Origin: Aquisalimonas sp. 2447
GTDB lineage: Bacteria; Pseudomonadota; Gammaproteobacteria; Nitrococcales; Aquisalimonadaceae
Length of the DNA stretch: 64,000 bases
Direction of reading: 5' to 3'
NCBI RefSeq assembly: GCF_012044895.1
Contig: NZ_CP050695.1
Coordinates: 2,758,501-2,822,500 of the forward strand
Of this stretch, positions 5,362 to 63,114 are shown piece by piece (position 1 is the stretch's first letter; every line of letters begins with the position of its first letter). The notes beneath the pieces were generated by a model. The model was given only the letters and a program-made list of their open reading frames with translations. It was not told the DNA's origin and searched no databases. The translations under genes were made by a program, and so were the position numbers.

Positions 5362-5633
5362 CAGCGGGCCTCCGGCGGCATTGAATGGGAACCCCCGCTC
5401 ACCGGGGGCAACAGGACCAGCGGCCGCGCCGGGTCCACGCGGTCGGCTCGGCGCACCAGGTGTTCGCCCTGGGCGCAGGCCACCCGGGGCAGGTGATCGG
5501 ACAGCGCCGGCACCTCGCCCCGCAGGCGCTCCAGCACCTGCTCCACGGTGGGCGCCTCGTCCGGCACCTCCACCTGCAGCGACCGGGCGCCGGCGAGCTG
5601 CTGCAGTACGCCGTAGAACTCTACGTCCAGCAT
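5361..5633 (-). CDS. moaD: Molybdopterin synthase small subunit MoaD with a C-terminal extension
   Basis: The 90-residue ubiquitin-like sulfur carrier reaches the usual MoaD end, PPVSGG, at residues 76-81, exactly the E. coli length. Instead of stopping, it continues for nine residues (SHSMPPEAR) before the stop. Classical MoaD needs a free C-terminal Gly-Gly to be adenylated by MoeB and made into a thiocarboxylate, so this product would need trimming or an alternative. The stop overlaps the moaE start (TGATG), so the tail may have arisen by read-through to create coupling. The start is the ATG at 5633 with GGAGG upstream. Identity as moaD is firm. Confidence 0.9.
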   Translation of the reverse strand: MLDVEFYGVLQQLAGARSLQVEVPDEAPTVEQVLERLRGEVPALSDHLPRVACAQGEHLVRRADRVDPARPLVLLPPVSGGSHSMPPEAR

Positions 5634-5761
5634 CGATCCTCCCGGGTCAGGGAACCGCCGCGGCGGCATCGTGTCCGAGTATGCCACAGAGCACCAGCGG
5701 GAAGGCACGGTGGCCCCGGCCACTGTGTTATCGTGAAACCAGATTCAGATCAGGGTGAGAG

Positions 5762-6196
5762 ATGATGGAACTCCAGGACCTGGTAGACACCTTCGAATTT
5801 CTGGACGACTGGGAAGACCGCTACCGCCTGCTCATCGACATGGGGCGGGAGCTGCCGGAATTCCCGGATGATGCGCGCACGGAGCATAACCGGGTGGACG
5901 GTTGCACCAGCAACGTATGGCTGATCACCGAAGTGGAGGACGACAATCCGCCGCGCCTGCACTTCCGCGCGGACAGTGACGCCTTCATCGTCAAGGGGCT
6001 GGTGGCCATCCTGCTCAAGGCCTATTCGGGCCGGACGCCCCAAGAGATTCGCGACACCGACATCGAGGGCCTGTTCAATCGCCTGGGCCTGAGCAAGCAG
6101 CTCACGCCCAACCGCCGCGACGGCTTCTTTGCCATGGTCAAGCGCATTCACGGCCTTGCCGAACAGCACGGTGGCACCGCGACCGCCAACGCCTGA
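5762..6196 (+). CDS. sufE: Cysteine desulfuration protein SufE
   Basis: The 144-residue SufE takes persulfide sulfur from the cysteine desulfurase SufS and passes it to the scaffold. The acceptor cysteine is C48 in the motif RVDGCTSNVW, and the SufE/CsdE fold is evident through the C-terminal LGLSKQLTPNRRDGFF segment. It is a single transcription unit, divergent from the moa genes and 41 kb away from the suf operon, which encodes a SufU as well. The start could be either of two adjacent ATGs (5762 or 5765). A strong terminator follows. Confidence 0.93.
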   Translation: MMELQDLVDTFEFLDDWEDRYRLLIDMGRELPEFPDDARTEHNRVDGCTSNVWLITEVEDDNPPRLHFRADSDAFIVKGLVAILLKAYSGRTPQEIRDTDIEGLFNRLGLSKQLTPNRRDGFFAMVKRIHGLAEQHGGTATANA

Positions 6197-6220
6197 CCTG
6201 CTTTACTGATGTGTTTCCTT

Positions 6221-6251
6221 AACGAGTGCCGCCCTGCAGGCGGCACTCGTT
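6221..6251. terminator. Bidirectional terminator between sufE and quinone reductase gene
   Basis: A perfect 13-bp stem (AACGAGTGCCGCC and its complement) encloses a 5-base loop, CTGCA. It lies between the convergent sufE and the quinone reductase gene, so it can end transcripts from both sides; A and T residues flank it. Confidence 0.85.
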
Positions 6252-6261
6252 ATCCGACCAA

Positions 6262-7245
6262 TCAGCCTCGACCGGTGGTCAATACGATCTTGCCGGTGGC
6301 CTTGCGGCTCAGCAGCCCGTTGAGCGCATCTGCCGCCTGCTCCAGGGGATAGGTCTTCCACACGTGGGGCTTGAGCTTGCCCTCGGCGTGCATGGCGAAG
6401 AGTTCCTGGAAGTTCTTGGCGTTGTCCTGGGGCTGACGACGGACGAAATCACCCCAGAACACCCCCACCACGCTTGAGCCCTTGAGCAGCGGCAGGTTGC
6501 CGGGGATCTTCGGGATCGTGCCACTGGCGAAACCGATGATCAGCAGCCGGCCGTTCCAGTTGATGCAGCGCAGCGCCTGTTCGCAGGCCTCGCCACCCAC
6601 CGGATCGTAGATCACGTCGGCGCCCTTGCCATCGGTGAGCGCCTTGACCTGATCCTTGAGGCTACCTTCGCTGTAGTTCACCAGCTCGTCGGCGCCGTGC
6701 TCTTTCGCCACCTGCAATTTCTCATCGGAGCTGGCGGCGGCGATCACGCGGGCACCCATGGCCTTGCCCAGCTCAACTGCAGCCAGGCCCACGCCACCGG
6801 AGGCGCCCAGCACCAGCAGGGTCTCACCGGCGGCCAGGTGCCCGCGCTGCTTCAGCGCGTGGTAAGACGTGCCGTAGACCATGGGAAAACCGGCAGCGGT
6901 GACGTAGTCCATGCTGGACGGCATAGGCAGCACCCGGTCGGCGCCAATCACCACTTCTTCGGCGAAGCCGCCCCAGCCGGTGAGAGACATCACCGGATCC
7001 CCCACCTTCAGGTGGCTGACCGCGGAACCCACCTCCAGAATCTCCCCGGCCACTTCAGAGCCCGGGGAGAACGGCAGATCCGGCTGGATCTGGTACTTGC
7101 CCTGGATGATCAGGGTGTCCGGGAAGTTGACGCCGCAGGCATGGATGCCAATGCGCACGTCGTTCTCGCCCAGCCCGGGGCTGGGCGCCTCGTCCACCAC
7201 CAGGGATTCCGGTGGTCCGTGTTCCTTGCACAGTACTGCTCGCAT
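6262..7245 (-). CDS. NADPH:quinone oxidoreductase family protein (zinc-free MDR)
   Basis: The 327-residue protein is a medium-chain dehydrogenase/reductase of the quinone-reductase type. It lacks the zinc-ligand pattern and has GASGGVGLAAVELGKAMGA as its nucleotide-binding glycine motif near 145-165. Its likely role is NADPH-dependent reduction of a quinone or an enoyl-type substrate. The start at 7245 (MRAVLCKEHG) has GGAG upstream; the frame extends to 7362 without similarity. It lies downstream of the lipid-catabolism operon on the same strand but is separated from it by 298 bases containing two palindromic repeats, so it may be transcribed independently. Confidence 0.88.
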   Translation of the reverse strand: MRAVLCKEHGPPESLVVDEAPSPGLGENDVRIGIHACGVNFPDTLIIQGKYQIQPDLPFSPGSEVAGEILEVGSAVSHLKVGDPVMSLTGWGGFAEEVVIGADRVLPMPSSMDYVTAAGFPMVYGTSYHALKQRGHLAAGETLLVLGASGGVGLAAVELGKAMGARVIAAASSDEKLQVAKEHGADELVNYSEGSLKDQVKALTDGKGADVIYDPVGGEACEQALRCINWNGRLLIIGFASGTIPKIPGNLPLLKGSSVVGVFWGDFVRRQPQDNAKNFQELFAMHAEGKLKPHVWKTYPLEQAADALNGLLSRKATGKIVLTTGRG

Positions 7246-47072: not shown

Positions 47073-48326
47073 TCAGGCGAACAGTCGCCGGACCTTGTCG
47101 ATGGAGGCCACCAGCTGATCCACCTCCGCCCGGGTGTTGTAGACGCCGAAAGACGCCCGCGCGGTGGCCGGAACGCCATAGCGCTGCATCACCGGCTGAG
47201 CGCAGTGGTGCCCCGAACGGATGGCCACCCCGTCATTGTCCAGGATGGTGCCGATATCATGGGGATGTGCCTCGTCCATGACGAAGGACAACGCCGCCGC
47301 CTTGCGCCGGGCGTTGCCGATGATCCGCACGCCCTCCATGACACTCACCTGCTCGTGGGCATAGGCGAGCAGATCCGCCTCGTGGGCTGCGACCTTGTCC
47401 AGCCCCAGCCCCATCAGCCACTCGATGCCGGCACCCATGCCGATGACGCCGGCGATGTTCGGCGTGCCCGCCTCGAACCGCTGCGGCGGTTCGGCGAACT
47501 CCGAGCGCTCGAAGGTGACGGTCTTGATCATGTCACCGCCGCCGTGCCAAGGCGGCATGGCAGCCAGCAGATCGTACCGACCCCACAGCACCCCGACGCC
47601 GCTGGGACCATAGGTCTTGTGCCCGGAGAAGACGAAGAAATCGCAGCCCAGGGCCTGCACGTCCACCGGCATGTGGGGCGCCGACTGGGCACCGTCCACC
47701 AGCACGGGCACATCCCGGGCGTGGGCCAGTTCCACGATCTCTCCCACCGGGTTGATGGTACCCAGGGCATTGGAGACGTGGATCACGCTGACCAGCCTGG
47801 TGCGCTCGTTGATGCGTGACGCCACATCGTCCAGGTCCAGTTCGCCAGCGTCGGAGAACGGCACCACCACCAGCTTCGCGCCCGTGGCATCGCAGAGCAG
47901 TTGCCACGGCACGATGTTGGAGTGGTGCTCCATGCCGGTGATCAGGATCTCGTCGCCGGCCTTGAGCCGCGGACGCAGGAAGCTGTTGGCCACCAGGTTG
48001 ATGCCCTCGGTGGTGCCGCGGGTGAATACCACCTCGTCTTCCGAGGGGGCATTGAGGAACCGTTTCACCGTGCCACGCACCGCCTCGAAGGCGGTGGTGG
48101 AGCGTTGCGAGAGCTCATGGACGCCCCGGTGGATGTTGGCGTAATAACGGCGATAGCAGTTGCTCTCGGCGTCGATCACCACGTCGGGCTTCTGCGCCGT
48201 GGCGCCGTTGTCCAGATAGACCAGCGGCTTGCCGTTGATCTCCTGGTGCAGAATCGGGAACTGGGCGCGGATGGCCTCCACGTCCAGCGCCGACGCCATA
48301 TTCACCACCGGGTCGAGCTGACTCAT
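47073..48326 (-). CDS. sufS: Cysteine desulfurase SufS
   Basis: The 417-residue class V aminotransferase-fold enzyme takes sulfur from cysteine. The PLP lysine is in FSGHKTYGPSG and the catalytic Cys in IRSGHHCAQPVM, the group II (SufS) form. LVYLDNGATAQKP is the N-terminal signature. It starts in an ATGA-like overlap with sufD (four bases) and ends immediately before sufU. It supplies sulfur for the SufBCD scaffold. Confidence 0.95.
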   Translation of the reverse strand: MSQLDPVVNMASALDVEAIRAQFPILHQEINGKPLVYLDNGATAQKPDVVIDAESNCYRRYYANIHRGVHELSQRSTTAFEAVRGTVKRFLNAPSEDEVVFTRGTTEGINLVANSFLRPRLKAGDEILITGMEHHSNIVPWQLLCDATGAKLVVVPFSDAGELDLDDVASRINERTRLVSVIHVSNALGTINPVGEIVELAHARDVPVLVDGAQSAPHMPVDVQALGCDFFVFSGHKTYGPSGVGVLWGRYDLLAAMPPWHGGGDMIKTVTFERSEFAEPPQRFEAGTPNIAGVIGMGAGIEWLMGLGLDKVAAHEADLLAYAHEQVSVMEGVRIIGNARRKAAALSFVMDEAHPHDIGTILDNDGVAIRSGHHCAQPVMQRYGVPATARASFGVYNTRAEVDQLVASIDKVRRLFA

Positions 48327-49654
48327 AACAGTTTCCTCACCGCCTCCTCACCGGGCAGCAGCGACAGCAACGCCTCCCGCTCATACGCCTGCAGCGACGG
48401 CAGCGCCATGTTGTCCAGCATTTCGTTGGCGAACGCGAAGGTTAGCACGCCCCGGGCCTCTTCGTCGGAGACGCCGCGGGTGCGCATGTAGAACACCGCG
48501 TGCTCATCCAGCTGACCCACGGTGGACCCATGGCCACACTTGACGTCGTCGGCATAGATCTCCAGCCGCGGGTTGGAGTGGGCAATGCCCTTGGGGCTGA
48601 GCAGCAGGTTGCGGTTCTCCTGGCCCGCATCGGTCTTCTGCGCGCCCTTGGCCACCTGGATCAGGCCGTCGAACACGGATTCCGACTTGCCCTCCAGAAC
48701 CCCCTTGACCAGCTGGTCGCTGGTGCAGTGATCGGCGTTGTGGCGCACCCAGGTGTGGATGTCCGAGAACTGGCCGTGGCGCACCAGGTACAGGCCATTG
48801 AGGGTGGCGTTGGCGCCCGGACCGTCCAGGTTGACGTAGAAGTCCGTCCGCAACCGCTGCCCGCCTGCATGCACTGCATGAGCGTGCAGCTGCGAATCGC
48901 GATCGAGAGTGGTGTGGATCACCCCCAGGTGCGAGCCCTTGTCGCCCTCGCTGGCGTAATGGAACAGGTTGACCACGCTGTTGGCGTCGGCCACCACCTC
49001 GGTCACCGGGGCGGTCAGGTAGGCAGCGCCGTCGCTGCCCTCGTGCCGCTGCACGACAGTGAACTCGGAGCTGGTGGCGGCGTGGATGAGCACTCGCGGC
49101 CAGGCCGCTACGCCGGTGGACTCCGCCGTCATGACGCTGACCAGCTCCAAAGGCTGCTCAGGGGCAGCACCGCTGACCACTTCAATCACCACGCCCTGAG
49201 TCGCAAACGCGGTGTTCAGTGCCAGGAAGGGATGCGGCTCCGCGTCCGCGTGGCGCGCCAGATGCTGCTCGGCGACGCCGCCTTCTTCTTCCAGGGCCGC
49301 GGCCAGGGTGCGCACGCGCACACCGTCGGGAAGCCGCTCCAACTCAGACCGCCCGGTGTCCAGCACACCGTCCACCATGACAATGCGCACGGCATCTTCC
49401 ACCACCGCAAGATTGGCGGCGGCCTCACTGCTGAGGGTGCCTGGCGACTGGGCTGGCCGGAAGTGGTCCTGGGTGACGTTGCCCAGGCGCGTCTGCTTCC
49501 AGGCTTCTACCTTGCGCCCGGGGAAACCGGCCGCCTCGAACCGCTGCATGGCCGCTTCACGGCGCGTTGCCCACCAGGCCGGCTCCGCCGAGCGATCGCG
49601 GGCCTGGAAATCCTGCAGGTAGACACTGCTCTGCTCTGCTACAGCTTCCATCAT
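48323..49654 (-). CDS. sufD: Fe-S assembly scaffold subunit SufD
   Basis: The 443-residue SufD forms the SufBC2D complex with SufB and the ATPase SufC. SufD features are AWKQTRLGNV near the N-terminus, the beta-helix core, and the C-terminal DDVKCGHGSTVGQLDEHAVFYM then RGVSDEEARGVLTFAF. Two adjacent ATGs (49654 and 49651) are possible. It lies 23 bases after sufC and overlaps sufS by four. Confidence 0.95.
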   Translation of the reverse strand: MMEAVAEQSSVYLQDFQARDRSAEPAWWATRREAAMQRFEAAGFPGRKVEAWKQTRLGNVTQDHFRPAQSPGTLSSEAAANLAVVEDAVRIVMVDGVLDTGRSELERLPDGVRVRTLAAALEEEGGVAEQHLARHADAEPHPFLALNTAFATQGVVIEVVSGAAPEQPLELVSVMTAESTGVAAWPRVLIHAATSSEFTVVQRHEGSDGAAYLTAPVTEVVADANSVVNLFHYASEGDKGSHLGVIHTTLDRDSQLHAHAVHAGGQRLRTDFYVNLDGPGANATLNGLYLVRHGQFSDIHTWVRHNADHCTSDQLVKGVLEGKSESVFDGLIQVAKGAQKTDAGQENRNLLLSPKGIAHSNPRLEIYADDVKCGHGSTVGQLDEHAVFYMRTRGVSDEEARGVLTFAFANEMLDNMALPSLQAYEREALLSLLPGEEAVRKLL

Positions 49655-49677
49655 GTACCCCGTTGGTCGGCGTGGGC

Positions 49678-50436
<759 letters not shown>

Positions 50437-50517
50437 TGTCCAGACTCCAGATTCCTGTTGTATCCAGTCGGGCCCGACACCTCCGGGCGCCGGGCCGGTT
50501 CGATTCGTGTTGCCGGA

Positions 50518-51987
<1,470 letters not shown>

Positions 51988-52000
51988 TGACACGCTCCGC

Positions 52001-52465
52001 TCAGCTGACTGCCGTTTTGACCCGTATGTCGATGCCGCGGAGGCTGGGATGCTCCGGCGGCAGCGGTTGACTCATGTCCTTGATGCTCACGCCTTCCAGC
52101 GCCTGGTAGAAGGCTTCATTGATGCGCGCCCAGTTACTGCTCACTTCGCAGTACGGACTGTACTGGCATGCAGCACCACCGCCCTCGATACAGTCGGTGA
52201 GCGCGATGGGCCCTTCGATGGCCCGCAGCACATCGGCCAGGGAGATTTCCTCCGCCGGCCGTGCCAGACTGTACCCGCCCCTGGAGCCGCGGTGCGACGC
52301 GAGCACTTCGGAGCGCACCAGCTGCTTCAGGATCTTGCTGACGATGGCCTGCGGCAGACCGCGCTGCTCGGCAAGCCAGGCCGCGCTGAACCGATCCTCG
52401 CGCTCGGTGGCCATGAGCCCGAGGATGGCGGTTGCATAATCCGTTTCGCGGTTGATCCGTATCAT
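52001..52465 (-). CDS. Rrf2-family SUF regulator (IscR/SufR-like)
   Basis: The 154-residue winged-helix regulator leads the suf operon. The N-terminal helix-turn-helix ([19 protein letters not shown]) and the wing [12 protein letters not shown] are typical Rrf2, and three Cys in [17 protein letters not shown] are the expected [2Fe-2S] ligands, so it senses Fe-S status. It probably represses its own operon through a palindrome overlapping its translation start region. Confidence 0.93.
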
Positions 52466-55070: not shown

Positions 55071-55430
55071 CTACGCCTCACCCAATGACCGGAACGCGCG
55101 ACGGAGTTCGTCGGTGGAACGCACGCCCTCCAGAATCCGATGAACCTCGCCGGAGCCGTCGAACAGCACCAGGGTCACGTGCGAGACGTCGTGTTCCCGC
55201 GCAAACCGTCTGCCTTCACTTGAGTCAATATCGACAACGCGGAAATCCATGCGATCGCTGAATTCCGGATAGGCGCTCTCCACGTTGCTCAGCAGGCGAC
55301 GACACGTCGGACAACCGTGGTCGTGAACCTGCACGATCACCGGCTTCCCGTCGCCAATCACGCTGATGTCCGCACGCGCCTCCCTGGAACCCCATTCCAT
55401 GCCCAACCAGATTGCCGGGATGCTCAGCAC
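55071..55430 (-). CDS. Thioredoxin-like protein with CPTC motif
   Basis: The 119-residue product contains a thioredoxin fold with active site HGCPTCRRLL. The 5' end is uncertain. The frame stays open upstream and encodes a convincing membrane or signal segment before GTG 55430 (GFLGLAVLSIPAIWLG), but no ATG, GTG or TTG lies there in frame before a stop; an AGGAGG sits just upstream of an ATT codon (about 55460). The protein is therefore probably longer and exported, perhaps with a rare start codon. It lies next to the Glu/Gly-tail peptide locus on the opposite strand to the first peptide. Confidence 0.7.
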   Translation of the reverse strand: MLSIPAIWLGMEWGSREARADISVIGDGKPVIVQVHDHGCPTCRRLLSNVESAYPEFSDRMDFRVVDIDSSEGRRFAREHDVSHVTLVLFDGSGEVHRILEGVRSTDELRRAFRSLGEA

Positions 55431-55588: not shown

Positions 55589-55789
55589 ATGGGCAGCGAA
55601 GACAGCAAGCGCCGTGAACTGGCCAGAACCCTGGCGAAAGGTTTGGCGTACTCAGCGCCACTGATCGTGGCCGTTTCGCCGGCGTCGCCTCGGTGCACGC
55701 CATACTCGGCGATGCCACCGGCGCTGGCCGCGGCCATTACATGGCCGAAGCCGAGGGTGAAGGCCGAAGGGGAGGCTGAGAGCCGTTGA
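55589..55789 (+). pseudogene. Second Glu/Gly-tail peptide gene, apparently frame-disrupted
   Basis: Read from the ATG at 55589 the product is 66 residues: SEDSKRRELARTLAKGLAYSAPLIVAV near the start is clearly related to the leader of the intact peptide at 55883-56131 (SKDSRQTLKGTLARGLIYSAPLML). After VAV the frame becomes Pro/Arg-rich and ends KAEGEAESR. If one base were inserted at about 55676 the other frame would give FAGVASVHAILGD, then MAEAEGEG-RRGG and a stop at 55779, matching the hydrophobic helix and AEAEGEG of the intact copy. A good ribosome site (AAGAGG) precedes the ATG. It is either a frameshifted pseudogene, a sequencing error, or a truncated variant. Confidence 0.6.
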
Positions 55790-55822
55790 GGAAGCGCTGC
55801 TCAGCCCCGCAGGGCGCTTCCT
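55789..55822 (+). terminator. Hairpin after the disrupted peptide gene
   Basis: A 9-bp stem (AGGAAGCGC / GCGCTTCCT) with a 16-base loop begins at the end of the disrupted peptide gene, followed by TTGAC. It is likely the terminator for the plus-strand copy. Confidence 0.55.
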
Positions 55823-55839
55823 TGACACTGCAGGAATAA

Positions 55840-55866
55840 CATCTCCCCGGGATGCCCGGGGAGATG
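55840..55866 (-). terminator. Terminator of the intact peptide gene
   Basis: A perfect 12-bp stem (CATCTCCCCGGG and its complement) with a three-base loop lies 17 bases past the stop of the minus-strand peptide gene, followed on that strand by TTATTCC. It separates the two convergent peptide genes. Confidence 0.7.
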
Positions 55867-55882
55867 TGCGGTGCGTCGGCGA

Positions 55883-56131
55883 TCAGGCTTCGCCTTCGGC
55901 TTCTCCCTCGCCCTCGCCTTCACCCTCGCCTGCGCCTTCACCCTCGGCTTCAGCGACGACGATCTGGTCCGTCTGCTCGACGTCCGCAGCACCGAGTTCG
56001 GCGGGGCTGGTCTCGCTGGCCACCGCCTGGCCTGCGCCATACGCGGCAACAAGCATCAGCGGCGCAGAATAGATCAGCCCGCGGGCGAGGGTTCCCTTCA
56101 AGGTCTGACGACTGTCTTTTGACTGTGACAT
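55883..56131 (-). CDS. Exported peptide with alternating Glu-Gly/Ala C-terminal tail; probable substrate of the adjacent TTL-like ligase
   Basis: The 82-residue peptide has a basic, amphipathic start (MSQSKDSRQTLKGTLARG), one hydrophobic segment (about 18-38) ending in a possible signal-peptidase site (AVA-SE), a short linker, and a tail from 61 to 82 in which every odd residue except 67 is Glu and the residues between are Gly or Ala. The tail recalls the Glu-rich tubulin C-terminus that TTL-family enzymes modify. It is divergent from the TTL-PqqD-like gene 178 bases away. The ATG at 56131 has GGAGGAG, so it is well translated. No known peptide family is recognised; a low-complexity protein without this role remains possible. 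Confidence 0.75.
   Translation of the reverse strand: MSQSKDSRQTLKGTLARGLIYSAPLMLVAAYGAGQAVASETSPAELGAADVEQTDQIVVAEAEGEGAGEGEGEGEGEAEGEA
55886..55951 (-). repeat. Six-base tandem repeat encoding the Glu-Gly tail
   Basis: Sixty-six bases of degenerate hexamer repeat (GAGGGC/GAAGGC type on the coding strand) encode residues 61-82 of the peptide. Mixed GAA/GAG and GGC/GGT codon use indicates selection at the protein level rather than recent slippage, yet such a tract can also expand and contract. Confidence 0.8.
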
Positions 56132-56236
56132 TCACTCCTCCTTCGGTTGCATCACGGCACATCGTACCGTCGCACGCCGCAAAGACGGCGTCATTAGAGT
56201 ATTGATGAGTATCCGCGGCAACGATATACGGGATTC

Positions 56237-56271
56237 AACGTACATGAGAGGCAGGCGTAAAGTGGTACGTT
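56237..56271. promoter_or_regulatory. Inverted repeat in divergent promoter of peptide and TTL-like genes
   Basis: AACGTAC (56237-56243) and GTACGTT (56265-56271) are perfect 7-base inverted arms 21 bases apart in the 178-base region between the divergent peptide and ligase genes. This could be a shared operator coordinating both. No regulator gene is adjacent. Confidence 0.4.
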
Positions 56272-56309
56272 CACCGTAACGCAGCCCGGGACAAGGGGGG
56301 AGCCGGACC

Positions 56310-58772
56310 ATGGTGTCGCAGACGCGGAAGCAGAAATACTGGCTTGGCGGCAAGCGCGAGGCGGCCCAGGACCGCTTCTTTCTTGAAGCCCTGGACCGGG
56401 CGCTGTGGACCGAGGGCGACGCCGATGACTGGGATACCTGCTGGTACACCGGCATGCCGGACAAATCCGCCTTCCGGCAACTCGATGCCACCCGGACCAT
56501 CAACCATATTCCGGGCAACAACGGGCTCACCATCAAGAGCAACCTCTATCGCACGCTCGCGGAAATGCATGAGCGCATTGCGGCCCAGGAGGGGCATGAC
56601 AGCGAGGCCGCCCGCCGGCTTCGCTTCTTCCCGAAAGTCTACTCCATGCCCACCGAGTATCACGCCCTCCAAGAGGCGGCCCGGGACAACCCCGCGGCAC
56701 ACTGGATTCTGAAACCGAAGAATGCGGCACGCGGCAAGGGGATCTCCGTCCTGGAGGACGTGGCGCTGGCGCCGCTGGACAACGCCTCCATGGTCCAGGC
56801 CTACGTGGGCAATCCCCACACCATGTGGGGGCACAAGTACGTCCTCAGGCTGTATGCGGTGATCACCTCCGTGGTGCCCCTGCGGGTGTACCTGTACGAA
56901 GAGGGCTCGGCCAAGCTGGCGTCGGCACCCTACGATCCGGAGCACTTCGACAACGTTTACGCCCACCTGACCAACCCGGACGTCAACGCCACCAACACGG
57001 AGAGTGAGTCGCCGGTGGTGTTCCGCAGCCTGGCCAGTTACCGGCAATGGCTGCGCGATGACGGCCATGACGACGAAAAGCTTTTCGCACGCCTGCGGGA
57101 CATGGTGGCGCTGACGGCCATCGGGGTACGCGAGCGCATGCGCAACCGCCTGGCGGAGATCGATGCGGATACCTCCGGATGTTACGAACTGCTGGGATTC
57201 GACTGCCTGGTGGATGCGGATCTGAACCCGTGGATTCTGGAATGCAATCTGAGCCCCTCCCTGGAAGTCTGTGCCGCCCCGAAGGATGGCGGAGACGTGG
57301 AGGAGCAGACCAAGCGCCGACTGGTCGCCGATCTCGTACATCTGCTGAATCTGAACGGGACCACATCCGACGCCGACGGCATCGACGACCCGGTTGCGCG
57401 ACTGCGTGCCGTCGCCGAGGGAGAACTGGCCCGCGCCGGCGACTACACACGCGTCTACCCCAATGCCGATCCCGCGGCCTACCTGCCCTTCTTTCCCCTG
57501 CCACGTCACGCGGATCTCGTGCTGGCGGACGCAGTGACGGGAACCGCGCCGCGGCCCTCGGTCAGGCCCCATAGGGTCCAGGAAATCATTGGCGAGGGCC
57601 GCCTCGGTCTCTACGGTGAACGGGACGGCACCCTGTATACACCCAATGACGTGGCGGCGTGGATCTGGTTGCAGGCCACCGACGGCATGGCGGCGGACGA
57701 CATCGCCGACAGCATTCTCGAGGCCCAGCGGCAGGCCGGGCAGCCCGCGGACGACTGGACCGTGCGCCAGCAGGTCTGGGATGTGCTGGCAGACTCCGCC
57801 GTGTCCGGCCTGCTGCTGCAGCACGCCGCGACCGACGCGACCGAAGCCGCGGACAACCACCAGCGGGACAACGCCGCATCCGGGCAGACCGACGGCCAGC
57901 CCTCATCCTTCTGCGTGATCGCCGGTGAACGCATGTTCCGGATCATGCTGCCCGACGAGGCTGTCGCGGCGCGGGTCGCGCCGGTATTCCCGGCCGCATC
58001 CGCGGACACCCCCCCGGAAGAGACGCTCTCGGTGCTTCGCTCCGGACGCGGTTATGCGGTGGCCGATGGCGCCGGCATCCAGGCCGACGGCCTGCGTCTG
58101 GCGCAGGTGGCCCCCGTCCTCCGGCAGCTGTTGCTGGCGAGGGGGCCGGCCCGTGCCGATGCGCTCACCCTGGACGGCGTGCTGGTCCCCCTCGGGGACA
58201 GGGATGCAACCGGCCGGGCCGGTACCGCGGTGCTGGTCACCAGCCGGGACCCCGCCCTGGCAGGCAGTACGGCGACAATGCTGGCCGGCGCCCTGGCGAG
58301 CGCCCCCTGCAGCGGCGGCATCCACCTTGGAGCCGACCGGGATCCGGCCCGCGCCGCCGGGCTGCCGCTGCTGCTGCAACGCGGTCTCCATGCGGCCCCG
58401 ACAACCGACCACGGAGCGCGCCACATTCATCAGACCCGGGCCGGGGCCACGGTGGACATGCTGGCTCCGCCGCGGTCGCCGGAGGCGTCCGGCTACACCG
58501 TAACCACGGTCCTGGTGGCAGGCACGGGTGCCTCCGGGGGCGCCGGCGATAGCCTGCAACCGGCGGACCGGCTGGACGTTCTATCCGCCATGCTGCCGGT
58601 ACTCAACCGTGACGGCGGCCATCCCCCGTCCTGCAGCCAGCTCGACGGGCTGAGCCAGCGCCTGGATGAATGGGAGCTGCTGACCCTGGACGTCACCGAT
58701 GCGGCAACCGCCCGGCAAGCCCTCGAGGGCTGGATCACCGCGGACACGAACGCGATTGCCGAATCCTCATGA
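56310..58772 (+). CDS. Tubulin-tyrosine-ligase-like ATP-grasp protein fused to PqqD-like and HprK-like regions
   Basis: The 820-residue protein has three parts. Residues 1-345 are a TTL-family ATP-grasp domain: WILKPKNAARGKGISVL (132-148, nucleotide-binding lysine and glycine loop), YVLRLYAVIT (177-186), and YELLGFDCLVDADLNPWILE then CNLSPSLE (292-319) with the Mg ligands Asp298, Glu311 and Asn313. Residues about 424-505 look like a PqqD/RRE domain (YTPNDVAAWIWLQATDGMAA then DDIADSIL and DVLADSAVSGLLL), the fold that binds RiPP leader peptides. Residues about 530-700 resemble the HprK-like kinase region that often follows PqqD, but its P-loop (SRDPALAGST) lacks the lysine. The rest is unassigned. 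TTL enzymes form amide bonds onto peptide tails, and the divergent gene encodes a Glu-tailed peptide. The ATG at 56310 has GGGGGGAG upstream. Confidence 0.8.
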   Translation: MVSQTRKQKYWLGGKREAAQDRFFLEALDRALWTEGDADDWDTCWYTGMPDKSAFRQLDATRTINHIPGNNGLTIKSNLYRTLAEMHERIAAQEGHDSEAARRLRFFPKVYSMPTEYHALQEAARDNPAAHWILKPKNAARGKGISVLEDVALAPLDNASMVQAYVGNPHTMWGHKYVLRLYAVITSVVPLRVYLYEEGSAKLASAPYDPEHFDNVYAHLTNPDVNATNTESESPVVFRSLASYRQWLRDDGHDDEKLFARLRDMVALTAIGVRERMRNRLAEIDADTSGCYELLGFDCLVDADLNPWILECNLSPSLEVCAAPKDGGDVEEQTKRRLVADLVHLLNLNGTTSDADGIDDPVARLRAVAEGELARAGDYTRVYPNADPAAYLPFFPLPRHADLVLADAVTGTAPRPSVRPHRVQEIIGEGRLGLYGERDGTLYTPNDVAAWIWLQATDGMAADDIADSILEAQRQAGQPADDWTVRQQVWDVLADSAVSGLLLQHAATDATEAADNHQRDNAASGQTDGQPSSFCVIAGERMFRIMLPDEAVAARVAPVFPAASADTPPEETLSVLRSGRGYAVADGAGIQADGLRLAQVAPVLRQLLLARGPARADALTLDGVLVPLGDRDATGRAGTAVLVTSRDPALAGSTATMLAGALASAPCSGGIHLGADRDPARAAGLPLLLQRGLHAAPTTDHGARHIHQTRAGATVDMLAPPRSPEASGYTVTTVLVAGTGASGGAGDSLQPADRLDVLSAMLPVLNRDGGHPPSCSQLDGLSQRLDEWELLTLDVTDAATARQALEGWITADTNAIAESS

Positions 58773-59004: not shown

Positions 59005-59937
59005 ATGCATCGCACACTCCTGAGATCGACGCTGTTGCTGCTGATCCTGCTCCCGCTCGCCGCCGGCGCCCGCTCCATGGAGCCTCTGGTCTCCGTGGAC
59101 TGGCTGGACCAGGAGCTGGGCGCGGACGATCTGGTCGTGGTGGACATCCGCAGCGACATCGACGGCGGTGACCGCCAGGCCTTCGAGGAAGCGCACATCC
59201 CTGGTGCCGTGTACAGCAACTACGTCACGGCCGGCTGGCGACAGGACGAGGACGGTGTACCCGGGAAACTCCCGCCGGAGGACAAGCTGGCGGAGTTGAT
59301 CGGCTCCCTGGGTATCGACAATGACACCGACGTGGTCATCGTCCCGGCGGGCGTGGGTTCCACGGACTTCGGCAGCGCCGCCCGGGTGTACTGGACGTTC
59401 AAGGTCCTGGGCCACGATCGTGTCGCCATTCTCAACGGCGGGCACAAGGCCTGGGTGGAGGCCGGCAAGCCCACCGAGTCCGGCTGGAACGAGCCGCGCC
59501 AGGCCAGTTTCGAGCCGGCGTTCCGGCCGGAACTCCTGGCCGACGCGGACGACGTGAACGCCGCCCGGGATGCCGGCATCCAGCTGGTGGATAACCGCCC
59601 GGCGAATCAGTTCCTGGGCGAGGAGAAGCACCCCGCGGCGCAGGCCGCCGGCACCATCCCTGAAGCGGTGAATCTCGAACAGCAGACGCTGACCCGGGAA
59701 GGTTCCGCGTTCATGGTGGACCGCGACACCCTCGACGCCCTGATGGACCAGGCCCGTGTCAGCGCGGACCAGCAGACCATCACCTTCTGCAACACCGGGC
59801 ACTGGGCGGCCATGGGCTGGTTCGCCCTGAGCGAGATTGCCGGCCAGGACGACGTCGCCATGTACGACGGCTCCATGGTGGAATGGTCGCAGGACGAAAA
59901 CCGCCCACTGCAGAGCGCGGGCCTGTTCGGCAACTGA
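59005..59937 (+). CDS. Exported thiosulfate sulfurtransferase (double rhodanese)
   Basis: The 310-residue protein has a Sec signal peptide (cleavage near AGA-RS) and two rhodanese domains; the second carries the catalytic Cys in TFCNTGHWAAMG. It probably moves sulfane sulfur from thiosulfate to cyanide or a thiol in the periplasm. The N-terminal domain lacks a catalytic Cys (VIVPAGVGSTDFG), as usual. GAGGGG precedes the ATG. Confidence 0.9.
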   Translation: MHRTLLRSTLLLLILLPLAAGARSMEPLVSVDWLDQELGADDLVVVDIRSDIDGGDRQAFEEAHIPGAVYSNYVTAGWRQDEDGVPGKLPPEDKLAELIGSLGIDNDTDVVIVPAGVGSTDFGSAARVYWTFKVLGHDRVAILNGGHKAWVEAGKPTESGWNEPRQASFEPAFRPELLADADDVNAARDAGIQLVDNRPANQFLGEEKHPAAQAAGTIPEAVNLEQQTLTREGSAFMVDRDTLDALMDQARVSADQQTITFCNTGHWAAMGWFALSEIAGQDDVAMYDGSMVEWSQDENRPLQSAGLFGN

Positions 59938-60031: not shown

Positions 60032-60616
60032 CTAGACGTTACTCGCGGCGCGGACAACCTGATCGCCTCCCCCGGGTTCCCGCTCGCGCTGCTTTTCCGC
60101 TCCCAGATAACGCCGCGTTGAAGGTGCCACACCGAATCCTTCCGGCACGTTGATGCCCGCGAGGCTCGCCATAACCCCGATAAGCGCCATGTGATGGATA
60201 CTGTGACTTTGCAAAAAAGCAAGTTCGCGCGAGAGGCTTGTGTCCAGCCAGTGGTCCTCGAGGCCATGGGAGCAATCGATGACATGTCGTACCCTGATGA
60301 GAGTGTCATCGACGGCGCGCTGCCGCATCCCCTCGAAGCTGTTGATGACATCATCAAGGCGCTCAATGGCAAGAGTGCGCATAGTCTCGGTCCGGACATC
60401 CCGCTGACGGGCGTGGAAATCAACCGTGCCACCGGGCGCCGCAAGAAGTGCCTCCGCATGTTCGATGGTATGGCGGACCTGCTCACCAATGGTGCTGCCG
60501 TAGCAAGGGTCAGCAGCGGAGTTGAAGGCATCATCGTCGAGACGTAACAAAAGGCCTGTCAGGCCCTGAAGGATCTCGGCGTTCTCGGCAAGCAGGCGGT
60601 CGACGAGCTCAGACAT
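60032..60616 (-). CDS. DinB-family (YfiT-like) metalloprotein
   Basis: The 194-residue four-helix protein has the DinB triad of metal His: one in GEQVRHTIEHAEALL and two in the HSIHHMALIG segment. DinB proteins include thiol-dependent transferases and many with unknown substrates. Start at ATG 60616 or GTG 60619. It is preceded by an inverted repeat about 90 bases upstream and lies downstream of the two-component system. Confidence 0.8.
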   Translation of the reverse strand: MSELVDRLLAENAEILQGLTGLLLRLDDDAFNSAADPCYGSTIGEQVRHTIEHAEALLAAPGGTVDFHARQRDVRTETMRTLAIERLDDVINSFEGMRQRAVDDTLIRVRHVIDCSHGLEDHWLDTSLSRELAFLQSHSIHHMALIGVMASLAGINVPEGFGVAPSTRRYLGAEKQREREPGGGDQVVRAASNV

Positions 60617-60704
60617 CACTCCCCCTGGGTTGGGTCAGGCACCGGCTGAAGTCGATTCCCGGGCCATGCCAGACACAATATAACGACCCCCGTATTGCAC
60701 CCCA

Positions 60705-60811: not shown

Positions 60812-61432
60812 CTACAACAACCAGTCACGATACCGATCCGTGGACAGCACCAACCGCACCATGTCAGAGCTGTTACGTGCGTGAAGCTTGTCCAGCACGT
60901 TGGCGCGGTGGACTTCAACGGTACGCACGCTGACATCCAGGTCCGAGGCGATGATCTTGTTCAGCTTGCCCTGCAGCATCCCCTCCATGACTTCCCGCTC
61001 GCGGGGCGTGAGCTCTTCCAGCCGCTTTTCCACGGCCAGGCGCTCCGAATGACTTTCACGGGCGTGCCGGTCGAGTTCGAGGCCATTGTTGACCTTCTCC
61101 AATAGCACCTCGTCGCGGAACGGCTTTTCCAGGAAATCCAGCGCTCCCGCCTGCACCGCACGCACAGCCATGGGAATGTCACCGTGACCCGAAATGAAGA
61201 TGGCAGGCATCTCCACGGAGCGGTTTCTCAGGGCCTCCAGTAACTGCAGGCCATCCATCTGCGGCAGACGCACATCCAGAACCATGCAGCCCCGGCTGCT
61301 GCCGTCGACTTCATCCAGCAGCGGCTGCGGTTCGCCGAAAGCCCGCACCGGCAGCCCCTCGTTCTCCAGCAGAAACACAATCGCGTCCCGCACGTCGGGA
61401 TCATCGTCCACCAGGTAGACGGCCTCGCTCAT
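60812..61432 (-). CDS. FixJ-type response regulator
   Basis: The 206-residue protein has a receiver domain (phospho-acceptor Asp in MVLDVRLPQMDG near residue 53, with SGHGDIPMAVRA and EKPF) and a C-terminal LuxR-type helix-turn-helix (LTPREREVMEGMLQG, ASDLDVSVRTVEVHR). It overlaps the histidine kinase gene by four bases and is its cognate partner. FixJ/TtrR-type regulators often control energy or redox metabolism. Confidence 0.93.
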   Translation of the reverse strand: MSEAVYLVDDDPDVRDAIVFLLENEGLPVRAFGEPQPLLDEVDGSSRGCMVLDVRLPQMDGLQLLEALRNRSVEMPAIFISGHGDIPMAVRAVQAGALDFLEKPFRDEVLLEKVNNGLELDRHARESHSERLAVEKRLEELTPREREVMEGMLQGKLNKIIASDLDVSVRTVEVHRANVLDKLHARNSSDMVRLVLSTDRYRDWLL

Positions 61433-63114
61433 TTCCGACCTCCGTCGGCTTCGCCGCCATCACCGTGCAAAGGCAGAAGAATATCGAAACGGGCACCTGC
61501 ACCGGGCTCATTGGACGCAAGGATACGGCCACCTTCAGCCTCTACGATCGAGCGTGAAATGGACAAACCCAGCCCCATCCCTGAACGACGGGTGGTAATG
61601 AAGGGCTCGAACAGGGTTTCATCTCCGGGAGTACGCAACCCCGGGCCACCATCAATGACAGACAGGCAGGCATGACGGCCGTCTCCGGTGACCGCCGTGC
61701 GCACCCGAACCCATCGGCGCGCGGCGTTGCCGCCCCCATCAACGGACTCCAGAGAATTCTGCAGCAGATTCACCACCACCTGCTGCATTCCCGACGCTTC
61801 AAGACAGACGCCAACGCGACGGGTGGCAAGTTCCAGGCGCAATTCCACTTCGCGTCGGCGAAATTCCGGGCGCATCAGATCACACGCCTCGCGAATCGGA
61901 TGGTTCAGATCGACATGTTCGGCTTCCGAATCCCCCTCGGCGAGAAAACCGCGCATTCGCCGGACGATATCCGATGCCCTATCCGCCGTGGTGACGATGC
62001 GTTCCAGTGGTGCCTGCAGCTCGCCGGCATCGGCCCCACGCTGCAGTAACCGATTGGCACTCTGGGCGTAACTGCTGACCGCGTACAGAGGCTGGTTGAT
62101 CTCGTGGGCGATACCCGCGGCCAGCGCACTCATGGCATTGACCCGGCCAGCTCGGGCGAGTGTATGCAGGTGTTCCCGGGACCTGGCTTCCGCCGCCAGC
62201 CGCTCCTGGCGCAACGCGGCAAGGAACAGCCCGGTCATCGCAAGCAACGCCAGCTGGGCGTGGAGGGAGAGTAGATCAGGGCCCATACCGGCGTGGGCGA
62301 ACGGGCCCTTGTTCATGGCCGTGCAGTGGACCGCCACCAGACTGGTAACCATTACCGCCCCGGCTGCCATCCACGGCGGAAACCGCAGAGCCACCAGCAT
62401 CACCATGGGAAACACGGCATAGGAGAGCGGCAGGGCTATCTGGTCAGAAACCAGGTCCGAGTAAATCACCAGGGTGGTGGCTGCGACCAGCAGCAGTGCA
62501 CCCACCGCCGCGAGCCAGCGGCCGGCAGTAAGGCGCTCCCAGCGGGCACTGACAAACACCGGGGCAAACAGGGCGACCCCCATGGCGTCCGCCAGCCAGC
62601 ACAGCAGCACAGCCTTGGCCAGATCGGGGCTCAGGCCGACGGCCACCAAGGCACCACCGAACCCGCTGAACAACGCCGTCACGCCCACGCCCACACCTGC
62701 CAACCGGTAGAGCTCCCCCATGGTCCCCAGATCACCGCGGAACCCGAGCCGGGCAAGCAGCCATGCGCCCAGCGCTGCACTCGCGGCATTCCCCAAGCCC
62801 ATTAGCGTTGCGTCGAGCAGAACGAAGTCCAGCGCCAGATGGGCGATGAGCGAGGCCATGAAAACAGTGACCGTCACGCCGTAGCCGAAGCGCCAGATGG
62901 CAGCCAGAGCGATGCCTGTCGCCGGCCAGATCAGCGGGACCTCCGGCTTGTCGAAGGTGAACTCCGCCGCCCACAGCGCCAGCAGGATATACACCGCGAA
63001 GGTCAGTACATGCCCCACCAGCGAGAAGCCGGGAGATCGAAGCGTAGAACGTGCAGTCGCCACTTCAGCCATGGCTCGCCCCCGTTGTGCGCTGACGTCA
63101 GGCGTCATCGCCAT
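61429..63114 (-). CDS. MASE1-domain sensor histidine kinase
   Basis: The 561-residue membrane kinase has an N-terminal MASE1 domain of about eight helices (about 30-300), then a HisKA-type dimerisation domain with the phospho-His in LAAGIAHEINQPL and an ATPase domain (VVNLLQNSLES, DGGPGLR, GMGLGLSISRSIVEAEGG). Its signal is probably a membrane or energy-state cue. The start at 63114 overlaps the upstream stop (TAATG), indicating coupling; an ATG at 63072 with GGGGGCGAG upstream is the alternative. Confidence 0.92.
   Translation of the reverse strand: MAMTPDVSAQRGRAMAEVATARSTLRSPGFSLVGHVLTFAVYILLALWAAEFTFDKPEVPLIWPATGIALAAIWRFGYGVTVTVFMASLIAHLALDFVLLDATLMGLGNAASAALGAWLLARLGFRGDLGTMGELYRLAGVGVGVTALFSGFGGALVAVGLSPDLAKAVLLCWLADAMGVALFAPVFVSARWERLTAGRWLAAVGALLLVAATTLVIYSDLVSDQIALPLSYAVFPMVMLVALRFPPWMAAGAVMVTSLVAVHCTAMNKGPFAHAGMGPDLLSLHAQLALLAMTGLFLAALRQERLAAEARSREHLHTLARAGRVNAMSALAAGIAHEINQPLYAVSSYAQSANRLLQRGADAGELQAPLERIVTTADRASDIVRRMRGFLAEGDSEAEHVDLNHPIREACDLMRPEFRRREVELRLELATRRVGVCLEASGMQQVVVNLLQNSLESVDGGGNAARRWVRVRTAVTGDGRHACLSVIDGGPGLRTPGDETLFEPFITTRRSGMGLGLSISRSIVEAEGGRILASNEPGAGARFDILLPLHGDGGEADGGRK

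Follow-up and report, generated by a model that had tools for sequence, protein, structure and literature searches.

The 64,000-nucleotide stretch of the Aquisalimonas sp. 2447 genome analysed in this study (contig NZ_CP050695.1; hereafter the window) probably encodes a leader-guided protein modification system that is built on an enzyme of the tubulin glutamylase type and resembles the systems that make ribosomally synthesised and post-translationally modified peptides (RiPPs). The ligase, an 820-residue protein that joins a tubulin tyrosine ligase-like (TTLL) catalytic module to a RiPP recognition element (RRE), is encoded divergently from an 82-residue peptide made up of a leader, a hydrophobic stretch and a Glu-Gly tail, with 178 bases between the two start codons (Table 1). 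Both open reading frames (ORFs), and the TTL-type ATP-grasp motifs quoted for the larger one, had been described in the original prediction and are present in the window. Its reading that the ligase recognises the leader and modifies the Glu tail is supported as a predicted function by sequence and model comparisons, and it needs one addition, that the substrates include cytochromes. That leader, RRE, TTLL module and Glu repeat form one functional unit is well supported.

The ligase was compared with homologues from 80 loci, the best 80 of 141 confirmed relatives, whose records are named Halomonas, Marinobacter, Ectothiorhodospiraceae, Robiginitomaculum, Pararhodobacter and others. Alignment A4 held the window ligase and 76 of the 80 (truncated L067, L073, L101 and L104 were left out), A5 the window ligase and 44, and A6 and A7 the window ligase and 31. 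TTL was the best Pfam family for 45/45 family members, and the AlphaFold model of the window ligase, made with 77 sequences, has an ATP-grasp/TTLL fold plus an RRE (predicted local distance difference test score, pLDDT, 89.6; predicted template modelling score, pTM, 0.86). The catalytic domain had been predicted to be TTL-like. The ATP-grasp fold was found, but in comparison with PDB sequences the ligase matched TTLL6 at E 3e-56, TTLL7 at 2e-52, 5vlq (which we take to be the TTLL3 glycylase) at 1e-16 and TTL at about 1e-12. A reading as a TTL enzyme adding tyrosine was weaker in both sequence and fold and was rejected, and on sequence grounds the enzyme is classed as TTLL-like (polyglutamylase). 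The active-site residues K135, R180, D298, E311 and N313, aligned to TTLL6, were kept in 77/77 ligases, and the family carries R/K and L at the positions of TTLL6 Q180 and H362. No NCBIfam ligase model matched among the 45 family members, though the ligase was not compared directly with a graspetide profile.

The PqqD/RRE-like region that had been predicted behind the catalytic domain was borne out by the model, where strands at 423-428, 431-436 and 441-443 are followed by helices at 447-457, 462-475 and 482-498 (pLDDT 90-97). Three strands and then three helices is the order that defines an RRE (PMC12710340). When the RRE sub-profile was compared with the PDB, the best matches were the lasso peptide RREs TbiB1 (E 4.9e-5) and TfuB1 (E 2.8e-4). 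Additionally, PqqD was matched in 26/45 family members at E<=0.001 (best 1e-8) and the lasso PqqD model in 15/45 at E<=0.01. Ligase residues 530-800 are largely folded at good model confidence and had no PDB sequence match, and short homologues of 439-528 residues lack this domain. The structural check thus upheld the ATP-grasp/TTLL fold and the RRE. An HprK fold for residues 530-700 was not confirmed: they matched no family model and no PDB sequence, and the list of matching folds was taken up by residues 7-395.

The last 22 residues of the window peptide, 61-82, read EAEGEGAGEGEGEGEGEAEGEA. Glu is encoded there by a mix of GAA and GAG and Gly by GGC, GGT and GGA, so the repeat is maintained at the protein level and is not a plain DNA microsatellite. 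The second peptide copy that had been predicted nearby exists as a leader part but is not intact, being open over that part only (a 66-residue ORF), and a genome of the same genus (G002) has an intact 98-residue counterpart. When the whole genome was searched, the ligase turned up once, and the search for the peptide gave the window peptide, the broken second copy and one chance-level match; a substrate-profile search of the same genome returned the window peptide as its sole match.

A rule of leader plus Glu-rich segment, composed after family members had been inspected, was matched by an ORF in 76/80 loci, usually no more than a few hundred bases from the ligase and in both divergent and tandem orders. 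The rule missed peptides in L055 and L073; a substrate is present in L073 all the same, and in L031, L052 and L060 it lies elsewhere in the genome, outside the ligase locus examined. The expectation that a Glu-tailed substrate would accompany other ligases was therefore confirmed. The same rule picked out 1 of 598 window ORFs (the window peptide), none in four loci without the ligase (58.5 kb) and none in 80 shuffled loci.

One leader is common to three types of substrate, namely short peptides, monohaem c-type cytochromes and P460-like proteins. Its consensus is Arg..LL..L-Ser-Arg...Tyr-x-x-Pro-x-Leu, and it overlaps a hydrophobic stretch judged by eye to be signal-peptide-like. Tyr occupies the P-3 position in 75/106 family leaders, and lasso RREs recognise a YxxP motif (PMC12710340). 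The repeats take the forms (EG)n, (EAEG)n and, in one genus, (PEAx)n, alone or ahead of a haem protein. They are C-terminal in the peptides and internal in the cytochromes, where leader and repeat precede a haem domain of the SoxA/TsdA type (modest Pfam matches). Among the 39 cytochrome ORFs listed is L078, which is a peptide with CxxCH upstream of its leader and not a cytochrome. Across 106 tails Glu makes up 35.7% of residues, with neighbouring Glu mostly two apart, and Asp makes up 1.1%, compared with 6.5% in the cytochrome domain. Some homologues' tails contain Lys.

Several further observations concern the substrates. Two Pararhodobacter genomes encode a leader and Glu repeat before a cytochrome P460-like domain (Pfam below cut-off; L141:1339-2406 and L142:1447-2418), in both cases outside the ligase loci examined. 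Peptides with (PEAx)n or PEG tails (L118-L122, L124-L126) come from genomes of one genus with a short ligase that has no C-terminal domain and from two genomes in which no ligase was found; several of the peptide genes are distant from the ligase or lie on a different contig. Tails in L014, L021, L022, L068, L089, L091, L093, L095 and L097 end in an encoded Tyr (SGY, GGY, GAY, GTY or DGY). Alpha-tubulin also ends in Tyr.

Ligase and substrate also occur together across genomes. When the window genome was taken with 58 relatives (n=59), 17 had the ligase and 17/17 of these a leader-type substrate; hits in G004, G017 and G036 were judged spurious from the length of their ORFs and their position in the profile. 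A few genomes have a substrate that is not close to the ligase: G026 and G032 have gaps of 140 and 176 kb between the two, and in G048 and G051 they are on separate contigs. Two further families were examined, with their names, Marinobacteraceae and Halomonadaceae, inferred from the centre genomes L043 (Marinobacter) and L050 (Halomonas). Ligase sequence was found in 28 of 160 genomes of the Marinobacter family, a sample of a larger group; 27 of these have most of the enzyme, which is in two pieces in G441 and G479, and G469 has a remnant. The Halomonas family (151 genomes) has ligase sequence in 26, of which 25 have most of the enzyme, with one in-frame stop within the match in G498 and G529, and G511 retains the first 206 residues. 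A leader-type substrate was present in 25/25 of the Halomonas family genomes with most of the ligase, absent from G511 and present in 1/125 without the ligase (G609). A class-wide search gave a ligase-like match in 6/274 genomes including the window's own; G207 and G317 have a full ligase with a substrate nearby, and three genomes have distant TTL-like proteins only. No such peptide was found within the short locus of one distant TTL-like protein (L023), and none of six pattern matches in viral contigs was confirmed.

A further link between enzyme and repeat comes from a cytochrome that carries one of two repeats. In the Marinobacter, Halomonas and window families, genomes that lack the ligase have an orthologous cytochrome with Cys repeats (NPCAxK or NPCAADPCAA), located before the haem domain and in many cases after it too (L175-L185, L190, L191, L193-L195, L200-L216, L234-L242, L111 and L112). 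All 27 Marinobacter family genomes with most of the ligase have a Glu-repeat cytochrome, and the 34 readable cytochromes of ligase-free genomes comprise 33 with NPCAxK and 1 with a Glu repeat (Fisher p 1.8e-16, relatedness ignored). Ligase-bearing Halomonas family genomes have 15 Glu and 1 Cys cytochrome and ligase-free ones 9 Cys, 1 Glu and 2 with neither; the window's own family has 5 Glu (with ligase) and 2 Cys (without; G010, G012). Summed over the three families, ligase-bearing genomes account for 47 Glu cytochromes and 1 Cys cytochrome, and ligase-free genomes for 44 Cys, 2 Glu and 2 with neither. A tree of 102 cytochrome domains requires 5 changes of repeat type (bootstrap 4-5), so the evidence amounts to a handful of switches and not a hundred. 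In the ligase-free Marinobacter locus L197 four neighbour genes are 61-82% identical to those of ligase-bearing loci, which suggests that the swap there took place at the same genomic position. If the system is as proposed, this exchange of Glu for Cys repeats is a natural experiment linking the enzyme to the repeat.

These counts leave out weak Marinobacter hits (E about 1e-10 or worse: G333, G339, G347, G360, G376, G427, G432, G445, G474, G484 and the second hits of G386 and G404), the second copy of G475, weak Halomonas hits (G508, G509, G571, G595) and four Marinobacter family genomes with no readable cytochrome (G469, G465, G477, G363). In L186, L174 and L192 a decayed cytochrome goes with a ligase remnant or with no ligase: in G469, which has the ligase remnant, what is left of the cytochrome lies in frame behind the DinB-like ORF, G465, which has no ligase, shows an altered haem motif plus a stop, and G477 has a cytochrome fragment only. 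A bufferin-like set, named by eye, lies at L199:7669-9677 beside an NPCAxK cytochrome (5617-6471) and consists of a DUF2282-like peptide, a DUF692/MNIO-like enzyme and a DUF2063-like protein.

Some caveats of this study weigh against the proposed system. The Fisher p-values take no account of relatedness, and only 2 of the roughly 5 repeat-type switches are forced by strong branches. G487 (at a contig end) and G609 have Glu-repeat cytochromes and no ligase was found in either, whereas G498 combines a ligase, with its in-frame stop, and a Cys-repeat cytochrome, though it has a leader-type peptide too. Glu-tailed peptides also occur in two of the 42 ligase-free relatives of the window genome (G046 and G047, genomes 84-86% complete). 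The rule demanded some of the leader residues and, within YxxP, the Pro, so that only the Tyr is independent of it, and at that position the cytochrome leaders (n=38) have Tyr in 17 and Val in 15. The window ligase's own PqqD match scores 15.8 bits against a Pfam cut-off of 23.4, and the own-genome search gave it no RRE/PqqD-model match.

The favoured mechanism begins with a substrate that, as read from its sequence, is synthesised with an N-terminal leader overlapping a signal-like stretch, followed by the Glu repeat. The ligase RRE would bind the YxxP leader in the cytoplasm, and the TTLL module would use ATP to activate Glu side-chain carboxylates at several Glu of the repeat and couple each to an amino acid, glutamate being the likeliest, through its amino group. 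The product would then be exported, probably via Sec, which would leave the peptide or cytochrome in the periplasm or membrane with a segment that is branched and strongly anionic. Branched glutamylation of the repeat Glu is the best guess, given the internal position of the cytochrome repeat, the avoidance of Asp and a glutamylase-like enzyme with an initiator-like active site. A role of the segment in metal or electron handling or in anchoring, hinted at by the Cys repeats on the same cytochrome elsewhere, is speculation. There is perhaps an even chance that the whole amounts to a bacterial "tubulin code" chemistry, with an RRE-guided TTLL (poly)glutamylating a portable tag, made of leader and Glu repeat, that exported peptides and haem proteins carry. 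In that picture Glu and Cys (NPCAxK) tags would be interchangeable segments, each with its own modification, of a single protein that handles electrons or metal, and RRE plus TTLL would be a bacterial counterpart of the TTLL5-RPGR pair.

Of the alternatives, the one that survives best is the same system with another donor, in which glycine, tyrosine or another amine is added to the repeat Glu. TTL does add tyrosine and some tails have a terminal Tyr, and TTLL glycylases attach glycine to internal Glu (PMC12340829). However, the ligase is much nearer the TTLL6 and TTLL7 glutamylases than 5vlq or TTL by the E-values given above, and another donor is considered unlikely, though worth keeping in mind.

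The tail could also be a carrier or scaffold on which amino acids are attached, altered and released, as with LysW, itself a precedent for such carriers. The peptide aminoacyl-tRNA ligase (PEARL)/TglA system offers another precedent (PMC9016710), and the alteration might be the work of a DinB-like protein encoded near the ligase. Its homologues occur in 58/80 loci at a median of 570 bp from the ligase and in 0/4 Cys-repeat loci, five His are kept in 58 or 59 of 59 rows, and it is a probable third member of the system. On the other side, the cytochrome repeat is internal, with no free C-terminus, and no peptidase was seen among annotated neighbour proteins, an annotation that covered a minority of neighbour clusters. 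A carrier role is thus improbable.

Slightly more doubtful is a reading in which halophiles carry the Glu repeat simply as an acidic tail, without modification, and the ligase acts on another site (leader or C-terminus) or another protein. Many of the host genera are halophilic or marine. TTLL11 and TTLL6 are also able to extend C-termini (PMC12366701). However, the tails contain hardly any Asp, the same cytochrome mostly lacks a Glu repeat where the ligase is absent, and the cytochrome repeat is internal. Lastly, many loci come from close relatives, but a chance neighbourhood kept by locus ancestry is very hard to reconcile with co-occurrence at a distance or on separate contigs, both gene orders, co-absence in three families and one leader on three protein types.

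Other neighbours are less clearly connected with leader-guided modification. A rhodanese homologue occurs in 28/80 loci and its link to the system is uncertain; an ABC-ATPase-like cluster occurs in 12/80. A thioredoxin-like ORF (55071-55430) was rejected as a component, with a homologue in only 1/80 loci, and a promoter and terminator scan found nothing exceeding shuffled sequence. Past the DinB-like gene, the minus strand at 60812-63114 encodes a response regulator (Pfam) and what looks by eye like a sensor kinase. At 47073-52465, 3-8 kb from the peptide genes, lies a set of Suf-type Fe-S assembly genes (SufS, SufD, SufC and SufB by eye) with a small regulator-like ORF.

Table 1. Positions of the ligase, its candidate substrate and neighbouring genes in the window
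Feature	Position	Strand	Basis
TTLL-RRE ligase, 820 aa	56310..58772	+	Pfam TTL E 3.9e-50; AlphaFold model
TTLL catalytic module, ligase residues 5-395	56322..57494	+	
RRE (PqqD-like) domain, ligase residues 423-498	57576..57803	+	Model; lasso RRE and PqqD matches
C-terminal alpha/beta domain, ligase residues 530-800, poorly conserved	57897..58709	+	
Substrate peptide, 82 aa (leader, hydrophobic stretch, Glu-Gly tail)	55883..56131	-	Leader-family member
YSAP (YxxP) leader motif, peptide residues 21-24	56060..56071	-	
Glu-repeat tail, peptide residues 61-82	55886..55951	-	
Second peptide copy, frame broken past leader	55589..55789	+	38% identity to peptide, E 0.001
DinB-like putative metalloprotein	60032..60619	-	DinB_2 22.8 bits, under cut-off 24.8
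Rhodanese-type sulfurtransferase	59005..59937	+	Rhodanese 92.7 bits

Searched titles and abstracts, with partial coverage, held no description of bacterial TTL-PqqD enzymes, these repeats or TTLL-type RiPPs; Iyer 2009 (amidoligases) lies outside that scope and may mention bacterial TTL-PqqD fusions. The words TTL and tubulin are absent from the two RRE-Finder publications. If the proposed system is correct, it would be, within the literature searched, the first case of TTLL-type glutamylation from bacteria and of an RRE that steers a TTLL. TTLL chemistry would gain a simple substrate without tubulin, a RiPP-like modification not known before would be added, bacterial cytochromes would have a post-translational segment of a new kind, and the function of Glu-Gly repeats, as in RPGR, would be opened to bacterial genetics in Halomonas and Marinobacter.

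Compared with known systems, the window resembles RiPP loci in having a short precursor with a conserved leader near the enzyme. DUF2282 precursors, which we take to be the bufferins, belong to systems with another enzyme and another target residue. They are likewise paired with RREs and have Sec signal peptides (PMC12710340). Graspetides are likewise made by an ATP-grasp enzyme that works on acidic residues in a peptide with a leader (PMC8939145), whereas the ligase here matches TTL and the window tail, residues 61-82, consists of E, G and A only, leaving no Ser, Thr or Lys to cross-link with acidic residues as in a graspetide core. The lasso RREs TbiB1 and TfuB1 and their YxxP leaders share RRE sequence, strand and helix order and leader motif with this system, but here the RRE is fused to a TTLL; lasso cyclase or peptidase genes were not seen among annotated neighbours, where no search was aimed at them. 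RimK adds at the C-terminus, whereas the repeat in the ligase substrates can be internal. RimK/RpsF is nevertheless a case of glutamylation of a bacterial protein (PMC11957791). The tubulin polyglutamylases TTLL6 and TTLL7 have the same catalytic fold and active-site residues, and the ligase differs from them by the two TTLL6 substitutions noted above and by the added RRE and C-terminal domain. By analogy, the closest precedent for the substrate appears to be the Glu-Gly repeat of RPGR, which TTLL5 glutamylates after binding an RPGR helix via an added domain (PMC13052805). Both TTLL5/RPGR-ORF15 and the window system thus pair a TTLL enzyme that has an added substrate-binding domain with a Glu-Gly repeat, but the window system is bacterial, its targeting apparently runs through an RRE and an N-terminal leader, and its substrates are leader peptides and haem proteins.

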